DNA from: Lachnospiraceae bacterium
Lineage (GTDB): Bacteria; Bacillota; Clostridia; Lachnospirales; Lachnospiraceae
Direction of reading: 5' to 3'
Assembly: GCA_014804385.1 (NCBI GenBank)
Contig: JAAUZW010000015.1
Location: forward strand, 106,287 to 140,592
Length of the DNA stretch: 34,306 nucleotides
In this document: positions 25,728-31,996 of the stretch, piece by piece
Numbering within the stretch: the stretch's first letter is position 1
How the letters are laid out: every line of letters begins with the position of its first letter
Notes under the pieces: model-generated
Databases searched by the model: none
What the model saw: only the letters and a program-made list of their open reading frames with translations
What the model was told of the DNA's origin: nothing
Program-made: the position numbers and the translations under genes

Positions 25728-26882
25728 TCAGGGGTTACATTTCTTACAGGGCACATATCCCTGCGCGATAATACTCTCCCGGTTTTCGGAGCTGTCTACT
25801 CTGTTTGTGGTGGGCAGGGAGTTACAGGTAGGCTTGTGGAACTTTTTGGTCTTACTGTTGAGGACATAGGTAAGTTCAGTGGTGGCCGGAGCAGCACTTT
25901 TCGAGGGCGTTTCCTCTATGGAGGGAGCGCTTTCTTTTTGTGGTGCGGGCGCCGGTGTATTGGACGCAGTCGCAGAGGAAGCAGTCTTACTCGAGTTGGC
26001 GGTGGCTTCGCCTGCCTTCCAGGTCTCGGAGGCGGGCACATTAAAGGTGATCGTCCTGCCGTCTGTGGAGGCAATGATGGTACCGTCCTCATCAGTCCGG
26101 TATACTTTTACGCCGTTTGTCCGAAGTGTATTCAGGGTCTCCGCGTGAGGGTGACCGTAGGAGTTCCCTTCTCCGCAGCTGATCACCGCGTAGGTGGGAT
26201 TGACCGCTTTGATCAATTCCTTTGAAGTGGAGTATTTGCTGCCGTGGTGTCCTACCTTATAGACGTCCGCGGAGAGGGAGATGTCAGTCCCTAAAATGTC
26301 CGCTTCGGCGTCCTCTCCGGCGTCCCCCGTAAAGAGGAAGGAAGTGCTTCCGTTCTTCAGAAGGAGCGCGATAGAGGCGTCGTTGGGATTGTCGTATTCT
26401 TTGCCGGGAGCCAGGATCGTTATGGTGGCGGTTCCCAGCGTATATTTACTGTTGACTTTAGGAGTCAACGATTTAAGACGCTTGTTATCCAGCGCCTGAA
26501 TCAGCTTCTGATAGGTTTTATTGTCTTTTTCATAATTGGAGACGAATACTTTGGAAATATCAAATTTTGTGAGGATCACCGGTGCACCGCCGATATGGTC
26601 AGCATCCGGATGGGTCAGGATCAGATAATCCAGTTTGGTGATCTTTTGCTTTTGCAGGTAATTCTGGATCGCGGTGCCTTTGCTGTCATCGCCCGCATCG
26701 ATCAGCATGGCGTGATCGCCGCAGGTGACCAGCGTGGCATCTCCCTGTCCCACATCAATAAAATGGACTTCCATTTTATCAGGACCAACTGCGAAGGCCG
26801 GCGTCGGCGCAGACAGAGCGCAGCCCAGCAAAACGGATGCAGTAAGAGCCAGATACAGAATTTTCCGATACCATTTTTTCAT
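25728..26882 (-). CDS. Secreted ComEC-like metallo-beta-lactamase-fold hydrolase
   Basis: A 384-residue exported protein. The start MKKWYRKILYLALTASVLLGC...AFA is a signal peptide; VLLGC could be a lipobox, but cleavage after AFA is also possible. The MBL domain has HFIDVGQGDATLV, the metal motif THPDADHIGG, FTGDAG and KVGHHGSKYSTS, as in the C-terminal domain of ComEC. A Ser/Ala/Pro-rich linker leads to a short C-terminal module YVLNSKTKKFHKPTCNSL...GYVPCKKCNP, which resembles an Ada-like metal-binding knuckle. Such stand-alone proteins may act on extracellular nucleic acid or related phosphodiesters. The 5' flank carries a palindromic repeat 30 bases upstream of the start. Confidence 0.88.
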   Translation of the reverse strand: MKKWYRKILYLALTASVLLGCALSAPTPAFAVGPDKMEVHFIDVGQGDATLVTCGDHAMLIDAGDDSKGTAIQNYLQKQKITKLDYLILTHPDADHIGGAPVILTKFDISKVFVSNYEKDNKTYQKLIQALDNKRLKSLTPKVNSKYTLGTATITILAPGKEYDNPNDASIALLLKNGSTSFLFTGDAGEDAEADILGTDISLSADVYKVGHHGSKYSTSKELIKAVNPTYAVISCGEGNSYGHPHAETLNTLRTNGVKVYRTDEDGTIIASTDGRTITFNVPASETWKAGEATANSSKTASSATASNTPAPAPQKESAPSIEETPSKSAAPATTELTYVLNSKTKKFHKPTCNSLPTTNRVDSSENRESIIAQGYVPCKKCNP

Positions 26883-27178
26883 GTCAATATCCCCTTTTTA
26901 TGCTATAGAAAATTGCGACAGTGTAAAACATTGAAGGAGAATGCGAAGCATTCTCTTAATCGAGCGCGCCGCGCTCGATTTCTTATAATATAGCACAGGA
27001 GTGCCCGGGATGCCAGAGGCATAGAGGGCGGTTTTGTGCACAATACCTAATTTCCAGAGGTGCAAATAGGCAAAACGCGCATTGACTTTCTCATATACGT
27101 TTTGTTATTCTTGTCATATGAACAACCGATTGCGCAAAGCAAAATAAGAGCCGAAAGGGAAATGGAGGACAAGACAGT
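26883..27178. other. Divergent intergenic region with palindromic repeat copy A
   Basis: About 300 bases between the MBL-fold gene and the 612-residue unknown gene. The left third is the palindromic repeat (26915-26990). The rest shows no gene; the unknown gene's ribosome site GGAGG lies close to its start. Confidence 0.55.
26915..26990. repeat. Palindromic repeat family, copy A
   Basis: Begins GCGACAGTGTAAAACATT, then hairpin GAGAATGCGAAGCATTCTC, then hairpin ATCGAGCGCGCCGCGCTCGAT and an AT tail TTTCTTATAA. The same order of parts occurs at 29328-29427, so this is a dispersed repeat, probably a small non-autonomous mobile element. Confidence 0.8.
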
Positions 27179-29017
27179 ATGGACAAGTTTATTGTCAATA
27201 TCATCCATCGGCCGGAGATGGTACCTGAGTATGCAGAAAAGGTGACCGGACACGGCAAAGAGGAGGATATCGGAAGAAAAGAGCTTTTGACGGAATCTCT
27301 GGATATCTTTAAGACACAGCAGGCGATCGCCCACAAGAATGGCTTAAAGACAACGATTCAGATGACCTACGCTTCTTTATTTAATGATGAGGCGGTGGCG
27401 CTTGCCAAAGAGGACCACGAGAAATACGGGGATGAGATCGCCCTGTCGTTGCTCGGCCTGCCCTGTGAGGAATTTCGTGAGAAATATAAGACCAAGGATT
27501 TCTGTATCTGGATGTTCTCCATGGAAGACAAAAAATCCATTGTGAACGACGTGTTCGGCAAATTCAAGGACCGCTTCGGGTTTTATCCGGAGTCTACAGG
27601 ATCCTATTATCTGGACGCGGATCTGGTAAATTATATCAAGGAAAAGTACCCGATGGTGAAATGTGCTGTGGCTACCTGCTGGGAGGAAGGACCGAAGGCG
27701 TATCACACCTGTAACAATTCCTGGTACACCTTTATGGACGGCGGCCCCTGGGCGCCATGGATCCCCAGTAAGCAGAATGTTCATGCGCCGGCGGCGAACG
27801 AGGCGGAGGACAGCGGTATCGTAGCGATCCCGCATTTGTCCAGAGACCTGATCGCCTGCTATGACGGCAACGGCTCTAACTTCGGCACCCATCCCCAGAA
27901 TGTGCTGCGGAGTATGTGCTACGATTCCAAGACATGGGAATATCCTTATATGTACAATTTGATCGATCAGTTCCGGTCTTTGGCGAAATACAATAACGGC
28001 TACGCTTACAACATGATGTTTGTAGGTCCCGGCTGGATGAATAAGATGGGACGCTGGGAGGCTCCCTATGAGCTGCTGCTCAAGTCCTATGAGGACGGCA
28101 TGGCATATTACGGACAGCTCAAGAAGGAAGGGAAACTGGACGACATGACCATGGCGGAGTTCGCGGATTACTATCGCGCCAACAGAAGGCTGACGGAGCC
28201 GGAGTGTGCGTTATGGAGAGATATCCTGTATGGATCGGACAAGCAGCTTTTCTGGTACTGCGATCCTTACATGAGAGTCTGCGCCAATATGGATCAGGGA
28301 GGCGCTATCGTGGATCTGCGGCCTTATGCGGCGAAGCTGGAGTGGCCGGTGGGTATCGGCACCAAGCATGTGACGGACGCTTCTTACCCTTTCCTGATTC
28401 AGGAGAAATACCGGGCGGGCTATTTTACACACTATGCGGGTGAAGGAACAGTCAGAAGCGCGAAGCTGACCCATAACGGCGAGGAAGTGGATCTGTGTCT
28501 GTGCAGGACCAAGGCTCATTTCTCTCAGGAGGGCAATACCAGGATCCTCACGCTGGATCCCGTGGACATCGAGTTCTATGATCTGACTGTGAAGCTGCAG
28601 ACAAAGCTGTACTTCGAGGAGGGCAGCTCCAATATCAAGATCGAGAGAACCATCTTGGAAATGAGTGATCCCACTGCCGAGGTGGAGATCAACGAGTACA
28701 TGGTGGCCTGCTACGGCACCACGGAGTACACTGAGGATATGACGAACATTGTGCTGTCAGTTACCGACGGGGCGCAGACCAGGAGCATTGACTATGCTTA
28801 TAAGTGCCGCGAGGAGGCGCTTGCAGGTGCAACGGAGGCTGTTGCGGTGGTTCCCGAGATCGAGACACGGGTTTCCATCAGCTGTGAAAAGAAGGATGCG
28901 GTGGGGTATATCAGAGAGGGCTATGCATTCTCCCCGATGTTTACGTTAGGCTACACCACCAAGTTAAAGGATAAGGAGGTATTTGCGACATGGCTCAATC
29001 TGGCAAAGGCAAATTAA
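27179..29017 (+). CDS. Unrecognised 612-residue protein, possibly carbohydrate-active
   Basis: A large cytoplasmic protein without signal peptide or membrane helix. I do not recognise the family with certainty. The first 350 residues look like an alpha/beta barrel (polysaccharide-deacetylase-like or glycosidase-like), with conserved-looking aromatic and acidic clusters such as FGFYPESTGSYYLDADL, MDGGPWAPWIPSKQN and MFVGPGWMNKMGRWE. From about residue 390 onward the sequence is beta-rich with sandwich-like strands. A carbohydrate role would fit the GH53 gene 300 bases downstream and the GH3 upstream, but this is inference. The ATG has GGAGG upstream. Its last 28 bases overlap the next gene, a zinc-ribbon protein in another frame. 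Confidence 0.7.
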   Translation: MDKFIVNIIHRPEMVPEYAEKVTGHGKEEDIGRKELLTESLDIFKTQQAIAHKNGLKTTIQMTYASLFNDEAVALAKEDHEKYGDEIALSLLGLPCEEFREKYKTKDFCIWMFSMEDKKSIVNDVFGKFKDRFGFYPESTGSYYLDADLVNYIKEKYPMVKCAVATCWEEGPKAYHTCNNSWYTFMDGGPWAPWIPSKQNVHAPAANEAEDSGIVAIPHLSRDLIACYDGNGSNFGTHPQNVLRSMCYDSKTWEYPYMYNLIDQFRSLAKYNNGYAYNMMFVGPGWMNKMGRWEAPYELLLKSYEDGMAYYGQLKKEGKLDDMTMAEFADYYRANRRLTEPECALWRDILYGSDKQLFWYCDPYMRVCANMDQGGAIVDLRPYAAKLEWPVGIGTKHVTDASYPFLIQEKYRAGYFTHYAGEGTVRSAKLTHNGEEVDLCLCRTKAHFSQEGNTRILTLDPVDIEFYDLTVKLQTKLYFEEGSSNIKIERTILEMSDPTAEVEINEYMVACYGTTEYTEDMTNIVLSVTDGAQTRSIDYAYKCREEALAGATEAVAVVPEIETRVSISCEKKDAVGYIREGYAFSPMFTLGYTTKLKDKEVFATWLNLAKAN

Positions 29018-29208
29018 ATTACAGATGTCCCTCCTGCTTTATGAGAGATCTGGATATCGACATGTTTTATGATAAGGATAAAAAGGAGTACCACTGCATC
29101 CGTTGTCAGTATGTGGGAACAGAGGAGGACGTGCTGGAGAAGAACGAGCTGGTACGTTTCCGTTACAAGGCGGCGATGAAGCGTTACACAAAGTTTGACT
29201 TTGACTAA
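28990..29208 (+). CDS. Small zinc-ribbon protein
   Basis: A 72-residue protein with two cysteine pairs, CPSC near residue 14 and CIRC near residue 37, spaced as a rubredoxin-like zinc ribbon; the C-terminal part is helical and basic. The start overlaps the end of the 612-residue gene by 28 bases in a different frame, with AAGGAGG just upstream, so it is translationally coupled to it. It could be a metal-binding accessory or a small nucleic-acid-binding protein. A strong hairpin terminator follows, showing the pair ends a transcript. Confidence 0.78.
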   Translation: MAQSGKGKLNYRCPSCFMRDLDIDMFYDKDKKEYHCIRCQYVGTEEDVLEKNELVRFRYKAAMKRYTKFDFD

Positions 29209-29226
29209 ATAAGTCAAGATAAAGGC

Positions 29227-29287
29227 AACAAAAGCATATTCCGGTGACAGAGTCGGTCAGAGGATTCTGCCCGAATATGCTTTTGTT
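29227..29287 (+). terminator. Terminator after zinc-ribbon gene
   Basis: Arms AACAAAAGCATATTC (29227-29241) and GAATATGCTTTTGTT (29273-29287) are perfectly complementary over 15 bases with a 31-base loop. It follows the zinc-ribbon stop by 18 bases and ends 18 bases before the GH53 start, so GH53 probably uses its own promoter or reads through. Confidence 0.7.
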
Positions 29288-29305
29288 ATGAAATGGGAGG
29301 CGGGG

Positions 29306-30535
29306 ATGAAATCCTATATAGAAAAAGGCGACAGTGTAAAACATTTCAGGGAGAATGCGGAACATTCTCGTAACCGAGTTCGCGAGGCGAATCTCGCAAT
29401 TGAGCGAAGCTCAATTTTTTATAAAGGCATGGATCTGTCCACGATCAAAGAGGTGGAGAGTCTGGGCGGCAGATTTTACGATCGGGGTGTTGAAAAGGAT
29501 ATATTCGCTATCTTAAAAAGCTATGGCACGAATGCGGTGCGCCTGCGTCTGTGGAACGACCCTTACGGGGAGGATGGCACGCCCTATGGGGCGGGCACTA
29601 ACGATCTGGCTGCGACCATAGAGTTGGCGAAGCGCGCGAAAGAACATGGCATGGAGATCCTTCTGGATGTGCATTACAGCGATTTCTGGGCGGATCCCGG
29701 AAAACAGCGTGTGCCCAAGGCGTGGCGGGGGATGAATGAGGACCAATTGACTGAATCGGTCTACACTTTTACGAAGGAAACTCTGCTCGCCATGCGCAGG
29801 GCGGAAGCTTATCCGAATCTGATTCAGGTGGGAAATGAACTGTCACACGGCATGCTCTGGCCCTTGGGACAGCTTCCGGAATACGGCAATTACGATGGGC
29901 TGGCACGCTTTGTACGGGCAGGAATCCGTGGTGTGCGGGAAGTGGATGCGGATATGCCCATTATGCTCCATCTGGATAACGGCGGCAATAACGCGCTGTA
30001 CCGGGATTGGTTCGATCACTATCTGGAGCGGGGCGAAGATGATTTTCAGATCATCGGCCTGTCCTACTATCCCTTCTGGCACGGAAGTCTGGAAGACCTG
30101 CAGAACAATATGAATGATCTGGCAGTCCGTTACGGCAAGGAGTTGGTCATTGCGGAGGTATCCATGGGATTCACCATGGAGGACTATGGAACCTATGAGA
30201 AGCTGGCGCCCGGAGAGCGAAAGGGATATGCCACGAAACAAGAACTCGTGGAAAAGATTCCTTTTCCCATGAGCAAAGAGGGGCAGGCAGATTTCATGAA
30301 AGCAATATTTGCAGTGATCGATCAGGTGCCGGATGGCAAGGGCAGAGGCTTTTTCTACTGGGAGCCGGCCTGGATCCCTGTGCCGGGGTCGGGCTGGGCG
30401 AATGAAACGGCGTTAGCCTATATAGAGGAAAAGGGTCCCGGCGGTAATGAGTGGGCTAATCAGGCGCTGTTTGATTATGATGGCAATGCCCTGCCGGCGC
30501 TTGCTGTGATTCGGGATTATCAGCCGAAGGCATAG
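29306..30535 (+). CDS. GH53 arabinogalactan endo-beta-1,4-galactanase with repeat-derived N-terminus
   Basis: A 409-residue enzyme that cuts beta-1,4-galactan side chains of pectin. The catalytic residues fit GH53: acid/base Glu178 in QVGNELSHGMLWP and nucleophile Glu284 in VIAEVSMGF. The family start GMDLSTIKEVESLGG is present, and NAVRLRLWNDP and LLDVHYSDFWADPGKQ are typical. No signal peptide, so it should act inside the cell on imported galacto-oligosaccharides. Ahead of the catalytic domain lies about 30 residues (GDSVKHFRENAEHSRNRVR...) encoded by the palindromic repeat. ATG 29306 has GGGAGG upstream and is preferred over 29288. An internal start at Met (GMDLST) cannot be excluded. Confidence 0.9.
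   Translation: MKSYIEKGDSVKHFRENAEHSRNRVREANLAIERSSIFYKGMDLSTIKEVESLGGRFYDRGVEKDIFAILKSYGTNAVRLRLWNDPYGEDGTPYGAGTNDLAATIELAKRAKEHGMEILLDVHYSDFWADPGKQRVPKAWRGMNEDQLTESVYTFTKETLLAMRRAEAYPNLIQVGNELSHGMLWPLGQLPEYGNYDGLARFVRAGIRGVREVDADMPIMLHLDNGGNNALYRDWFDHYLERGEDDFQIIGLSYYPFWHGSLEDLQNNMNDLAVRYGKELVIAEVSMGFTMEDYGTYEKLAPGERKGYATKQELVEKIPFPMSKEGQADFMKAIFAVIDQVPDGKGRGFFYWEPAWIPVPGSGWANETALAYIEEKGPGGNEWANQALFDYDGNALPALAVIRDYQPKA
29328..29427. repeat. Palindromic repeat family, copy B, inside GH53 reading frame
   Basis: Starts GCGACAGTGTAAAACATT like copy A, followed by hairpin GAGAATGCGGAACATTCTC, an added hairpin around CGAG/CTCG, then ATTGAGCGAAGCTCAAT and TTTTTTATAA. It has an open frame through the whole length and joins in phase with the GH53 domain. 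Confidence 0.82.
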
Positions 30536-30550
30536 TGACGGGAATGTGGG

Positions 30551-30579
30551 TTGAAATTTTAGGACTTTCAGAGTAGAAT
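30551..30579 (+). promoter_or_regulatory. Putative sigma-A promoter of OFA transporter
   Basis: TTGAAA at 30551-30556 and TAGAAT at 30574-30579 with 17-base spacing, 59 bases before the transporter ATG. It is among the best promoter matches in the window. Confidence 0.6.
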
Positions 30580-30638
30580 ATAAAAAGGAATCGGCATTTT
30601 CGCCTTTTCAATCTATCTAAAACGAAAGGACAACGAAT

Positions 30639-31956: not shown

Positions 31957-31996
31957 CAAGCAAAACCCCGAAGGTTCGCCTTCGGGGTTTTGCTTG
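31957..31996 (+). terminator. Strong rho-independent terminator after OFA transporter
   Basis: An 18-base-pair perfect stem containing CAAAACCCCGAAGG is closed by a TTCG tetraloop. It sits 17 bases after the transporter stop. The A-run on one side and T-run on the other may allow it to work in both directions, serving also the end of the convergent minus-strand gene. Confidence 0.88.

Follow-up and report, generated by a model that had tools for sequence, protein, structure and literature searches.

A probable in-frame insertion of a chimeric two-hairpin repeat at the start of a GH53 galactanase gene in Lachnospiraceae

In a stretch of 34,306 nucleotides (the window), taken from a 168 kb contig of a 2.6-Mb Lachnospiraceae genome, the gene of a GH53 arabinogalactan endo-beta-1,4-galactanase carries 105 bp of a dispersed repeat directly after its second codon, and the frame of 409 codons that starts at ATG 29306 crosses the insert without a stop and runs on into the GH53 domain, as a sequence-only reading of this DNA had proposed. 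The explanation that we prefer, with a probability of roughly 0.7, is that a mobile, terminator-like repeat recently entered the gene in frame and is tolerated there, its translation being predicted to give a tail; the same estimate includes the nature of the repeat, a non-autonomous MITE-like element and a chimera of two related families. By this explanation, the chimeric repeat would have transposed in the recent past into the gene of a cytoplasmic galactanase, between codons 2 and 3, and this gene would have retained its native ribosome-binding site and start codon while gaining exactly 35 open codons. The ribosome would start at 29306 and translate the repeat, and the outcome would be a flexible or helical N-terminal tail before beta-strand 1 that the barrel tolerates. 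The features are as follows.

29306..30535, forward strand: GH53 arabinogalactan endo-beta-1,4-galactanase gene, 409 aa with the insert (Pfam, PDB, 62 relatives)
29306..29311, forward strand: native codons 1-2 (ATG AAA); ATGAAA stands directly 5' of FYKG in the two closest relatives
29312..29416, forward strand: in-frame repeat insertion, 105 bp, 35 codons, SYIEKGDSVKHFRENAEHSRNRVREANLAIERSSI; missing in 62/62 relatives inspected
about 29315..29374, forward strand: family-A part with the TATATAGAAAAA end, the GACAGTGTAAAACATT block and the first hairpin (29351-29369), from the family A alignment and covariance model
29375..29425, forward strand: family-B part with hairpins 29375-29396 and 29398-29416 and the TTTTTTATA end; up to 98% identity to copies from other species in the genus
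29398..29420, forward strand: intrinsic-terminator-like hairpin and T-run within the reading frame (consensus only; about 2.3 chance sites expected in the region)
29417..29431, forward strand: native codons 3-7 (F Y K G M), barrel beta-strand 1; internal ATG at 29429
26898..26986, forward strand: complete non-coding family-A copy (104-bit model match), upstream of a metallo-beta-lactamase-fold gene

The galactanase gene and the empty sites of its relatives

The 409-aa product matches PF07745 over its full length (residues 39-401, profile 1-339/340, E=3.3e-112) and the PDB galactanases 7osk (E=8e-80) and 1r8l; it shares the complete catalytic domain with these enzymes and differs from them by the 35-residue repeat-derived tail. 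N177-E178 and E284 are invariant in 39 relatives, and we take them to contain the GH53 catalytic glutamates, the acid/base after the Asn and the nucleophile on a later strand (clan GH-A). K40 and G41 are also invariant (39 sequences). A Shine-Dalgarno-like GGGAGG (29295-29300) is located five bases upstream of ATG 29306.

The species is represented by a single assembly, a draft genome, and among named genomes those nearest to it are Lachnospiraceae metagenome assemblies. The GH53 N-terminus is free of the insert in all 62 relatives inspected, with the start codon two to four codons 5' of the same residue and the conserved motif F/Y-x-K-G-M-D after it; the comparison of N-termini suggested by the sequence-only reading therefore gave no N-terminus common to the window enzyme and its relatives. 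ATGAAA is followed by TTTTACAAAGGCATGGAT in the two closest relatives, which stand at 95 and 94% protein identity, while in the window ATGAAA is followed by 105 bp and then by TTTTATAAAGGCATGGAT, with the native codons resuming as TTT TAT AAA GGC ATG GAT; the uninterrupted form of the start is ATGAAATTTTAYAAAGGC. It follows from this alignment that the start and second codon are native and that the insert, codons 3-37 of the window gene, amounts to exactly 35 codons, none of which contain GH53 sequence. Repeat-derived residues are thus predicted as had been claimed, but they number 35 and not about 30. The exact ends of the insert are ambiguous by a few bases, and when the sites were compared for a target-site duplication, the borders proved AT-rich, with several substitutions separating empty and filled sites. 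Gene order flanking the window GH53 gene agrees with that of the relatives. Stops flagged within the relatives' GH53 genes were, where checked, ordinary C-terminal ends.

Several other elements were noted around the gene. Just 5' of the GH53 start (29227-29287) there is a separate 18-bp inverted repeat (94%), and its place is taken by a different hairpin in the two closest relatives. Close upstream, 27179-29017 encodes a 612-aa protein without a Pfam match at E<=0.001; a DNA match shows it to be conserved in the nearest relative. Between convergent genes, at 31957-31996, an 18-bp inverted repeat that is perfect and has a 4-base loop is probably a bidirectional terminator.

The repeat family, its modules and the placement of its copies

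The insert is a chimera, in which the 5' part comes from family A and the two 3' hairpins from family B. The opening and hairpin said to be shared with a copy at 26915 are indeed shared, but only over the 5' part (approx. 29315-29374), since 29375-29425 belongs to the second family; the 18-mer GCGACAGTGTAAAACATT is exact at 26915 and 29328, and two matches occurred in 0 of 100 shuffles. The non-coding copy, earlier placed at 26915-26990, exists, but the complete element spans about 26898-26986. The nearest relative lacks it at the orthologous position, where only 7 bases lie between the flanking matches. The full 121-base A+B match was found in the window copy only. As the family-B half is nearly identical to copies elsewhere, comparison of the sequences suggests that the insertion into the GH53 gene is recent.

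Family A is a repeat of approx. 90 bp with two hairpins (consensus TTATATAGAAAATTGCGACAGTGTAAAACATTTAAGGAGAATGCGAAGCATTCTCTTAATCGAGTGCGCGGGCACTCGATTTTTTATA), present in dozens of copies in the window genome (30 DNA matches, 56 covariance-model matches) and matched in 57 of the 77 genomes of the genus, while in a sample of 150 Lachnospiraceae genomes there were matches in three, two of this genus and one of another. In its second hairpin, 6 of 10 pairs have undergone compensatory changes, and none of 500 shuffles attained the covariation score of 0.189. Where copies stand in tandem, their ends overlap and the period is about 86 bp. Families A and B have the ends TATAG(A/G)AAATTG and TTTTTTATA in common, and terminal inverted repeats are formed by a TATARAAAATTG-like left end and a CAATTTTTTATA right end, which pair in the predicted fold; these repeats are clearest in family B, and short and imperfect in family A. 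As expected of a MITE, the repeat is short and dispersed, and it is present or absent between relatives, with empty sites for both window copies. No Y1 (REP/IS200-type) transposase was found in the window genome, the curated Rfam models gave no match at E<=1 over 26400-30600, and the literature searched contained no account of this repeat family in Lachnospiraceae. Related subfamilies in the same genome (L285, L286, L287, L298; L289, L293, L294, L300, L301) contain other internal hairpins or ...GTAGTAACCCAAATCGAG..., which suggests a modular superfamily with shared ends.

In order to describe placement, 96 distinct copies in the genus were classified with a hexamer-based gene predictor: 84 are intergenic, 7 are at contig ends, 4 extend C-termini by short tails, which in three cases contain a common peptide, DSENA(A/S/P)HSP, and a single one, that of the window GH53 gene, is N-terminal and in frame. 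The sequence-only reading had asked whether other genes carry the repeat in frame; apart from the four C-terminal tails, no second N-terminal or internal case appeared in the 96 copies, and a peptide-level search with four of the six element frames returned no further N-terminal or internal insertion among the matches listed. Other copies are crossed by long frames of up to 869 aa; in the four of six reading frames checked, these were dismissed as gene-flanking read-through or spurious antisense frames. Three unrelated genes (L209, L223, L276) end in the repeat-derived peptide DSENA(A/S/P)HSP, and a further one (L165) is similar and longer; the common C-terminus arises because an antisense repeat copy supplies the stop of the three genes. 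At L033:1485-1545 (G000:C17:21095-21166), a truncated copy closes with AAGGAG, some ten bases 5' of the start codon (ATG) of a gene that looks by eye like a NUDIX hydrolase, so that the repeat appears to supply the ribosome-binding site of that gene. A reverse-strand promoter in the repeat (TTTACA-16/18-TATA-like) was considered and rejected, the resemblance being at the level of consensus only.

The upstream gene runs in the hairpin-then-T direction in 55 of 81 intergenic copies (binomial p=0.002, with copies from related species not fully independent). This bias is consistent with a terminator-like role or with the repeat being tolerated at gene ends.

Condition of the enzyme and competing explanations

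The GH53 barrel is still under purifying selection, as judged from dN/dS values of 0.056 and 0.068 against the nearest relatives. On the terminal branch of the window species there are 12 amino-acid versus 39 synonymous changes, compared with approx. 6 versus 70 in two relatives pooled (Fisher p=0.02), and with this excess a mild relaxation is possible. AlphaFold2 gives a confident intact barrel with beta-strand 1 at residues 39-43, in front of which the insert is modelled as a low-confidence helix (pLDDT about 47-67). The 35-residue tail is probably harmless.

The main rival to a tolerated insertion is impaired expression, which we consider unlikely: the AATTGAGCGAAGCTCAATT-TTTT hairpin at 29398-29420 would end transcription early unless covered by ribosomes, and the gene would have been recently crippled or attenuated. 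The terminator-like site does lie in frame, and the orientation bias of the family in the terminator sense and the surplus of amino-acid changes on this branch point the same way. However, the gene contains no frameshift or stop, strong purifying selection is still seen for most of the branch, the scan yields about as many terminator-like sites by chance, and 5' mRNA folding of the window gene is not extreme, being equally strong in 11 of 62 relatives. Terminators within translated regions are also commonly suppressed by ribosomes. A related and very doubtful idea is that the inserted hairpin acts as a translation-coupled attenuator in the coding sequence, with ribosome traffic through the repeat deciding whether the galactanase mRNA is completed; if this were true, a jumping terminator repeat would by now serve its host gene as a switch in addition to forming a peptide tail. 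Translation could otherwise start at the internal ATG 29429 (Met42), which has AAAGG just 5' of it, leaving the repeat as a 5' untranslated region. This is very improbable, because AAAGG is 1 nt from the ATG and thus too close for a Shine-Dalgarno sequence, GGGAGG is well positioned before 29306, and the product would lose FYKG, i.e., most of beta-strand 1, which is kept in all relatives.

That the tail has been recruited for a function, e.g., translation-coupled attenuation or partner binding, and is an innovation at the protein level, is extremely improbable. A hexamer coding score, trained on the relatives' sequences, is -0.01 per codon for the insert in the frame of the gene, while the remaining forward frames score -0.84 to -0.97 and those of the opposite strand -0.32 to -1.03; the in-frame value is between the means of real coding stretches (0.41) and wrong frames (-0.76), and under 92% of the real coding stretches. 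In favour of recruitment, the in-frame score beats the best frame of 25 of the 27 non-coding copies, but the B half is nearly identical to copies elsewhere, which indicates that it has been under selection for little time, and the tail occurs in no relative and has a low-confidence structure. An assembly chimera induced by the repeat, in a draft of metagenome type, would account for the complete A+B junction being found only in the window copy, and repeats of this family are often at contig ends; such an artefact is nevertheless highly improbable, as typical read pairs are longer than the 105-bp insert, the contig runs on for tens of kilobases on both sides with flanking gene order as in the relatives, and a random misjoin would keep the frame and codon 3 only by chance. 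The tolerated insertion of a mobile repeat is the reading that we retain.

Known systems and meaning

The closest likeness is to the Rickettsia palindromic elements (RPE), which are palindromic repeats of 105-146 bp with inverted ends, found in frame in conserved protein genes whose products are predicted to keep their fold (PMC2229807, PMC10969869); an open frame of this type, through the element and fused in frame to the host gene, is present at 29306-30535. In Rickettsia, an RPE-bearing guanylate kinase was found to be translated and to be active, its affinity for the substrate being altered (PMC2229807), and by analogy tolerance would be plausible for the window galactanase. The resemblance, which had been proposed from the sequence, thus holds for a palindromic dispersed repeat in frame after a native start, but does not extend to recurrent gene invasion. 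Nearly half of 44 reported RPE copies are in genes (PMC10969869), and recurrent in-frame insertion in unrelated genes, the hallmark of RPE, is not seen with the Lachnospiraceae repeat, which is mostly intergenic (84/96, with 1/96 N-terminal) and belongs to a different phylum; the two were compared by description.

Other short repeats are similar in part. SPRITE and RUP of Streptococcus pneumoniae, in the excerpted account (PMC3049150), are short repeats with short inverted ends, SPRITE having a terminator-like hairpin and T-rich tract near gene 3' ends, and that excerpt reports no in-gene fusions; the organism is unrelated, and the Lachnospiraceae family differs from what is described there in having two hairpins and internal modules that can be exchanged. 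ERIC/IRU, RU-2 and the 107-bp Correia elements with open reading frames are likewise MITEs that are mostly intergenic with an occasional in-frame gene fusion (PMC2229807), but they are longer (107-168 bp), and the Lachnospiraceae repeat was found in one genus and, within the family sample, in one other.

The sequence comparisons give no sign of an acquired function for the tail, and the Rickettsia analogy is limited, as the Lachnospiraceae repeats rarely enter genes; the galactanase is a clean but apparently isolated case of a process known from Rickettsia and other bacteria. One Lachnospiraceae genus commonly carries a superfamily of two-hairpin repeats whose ends are shared and whose hairpins are exchangeable. 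Together with close relatives in which the site is empty, the GH53 gene offers a well-resolved view, before and after, of how a bacterial miniature repeat may create protein sequence in an abundant gut family.
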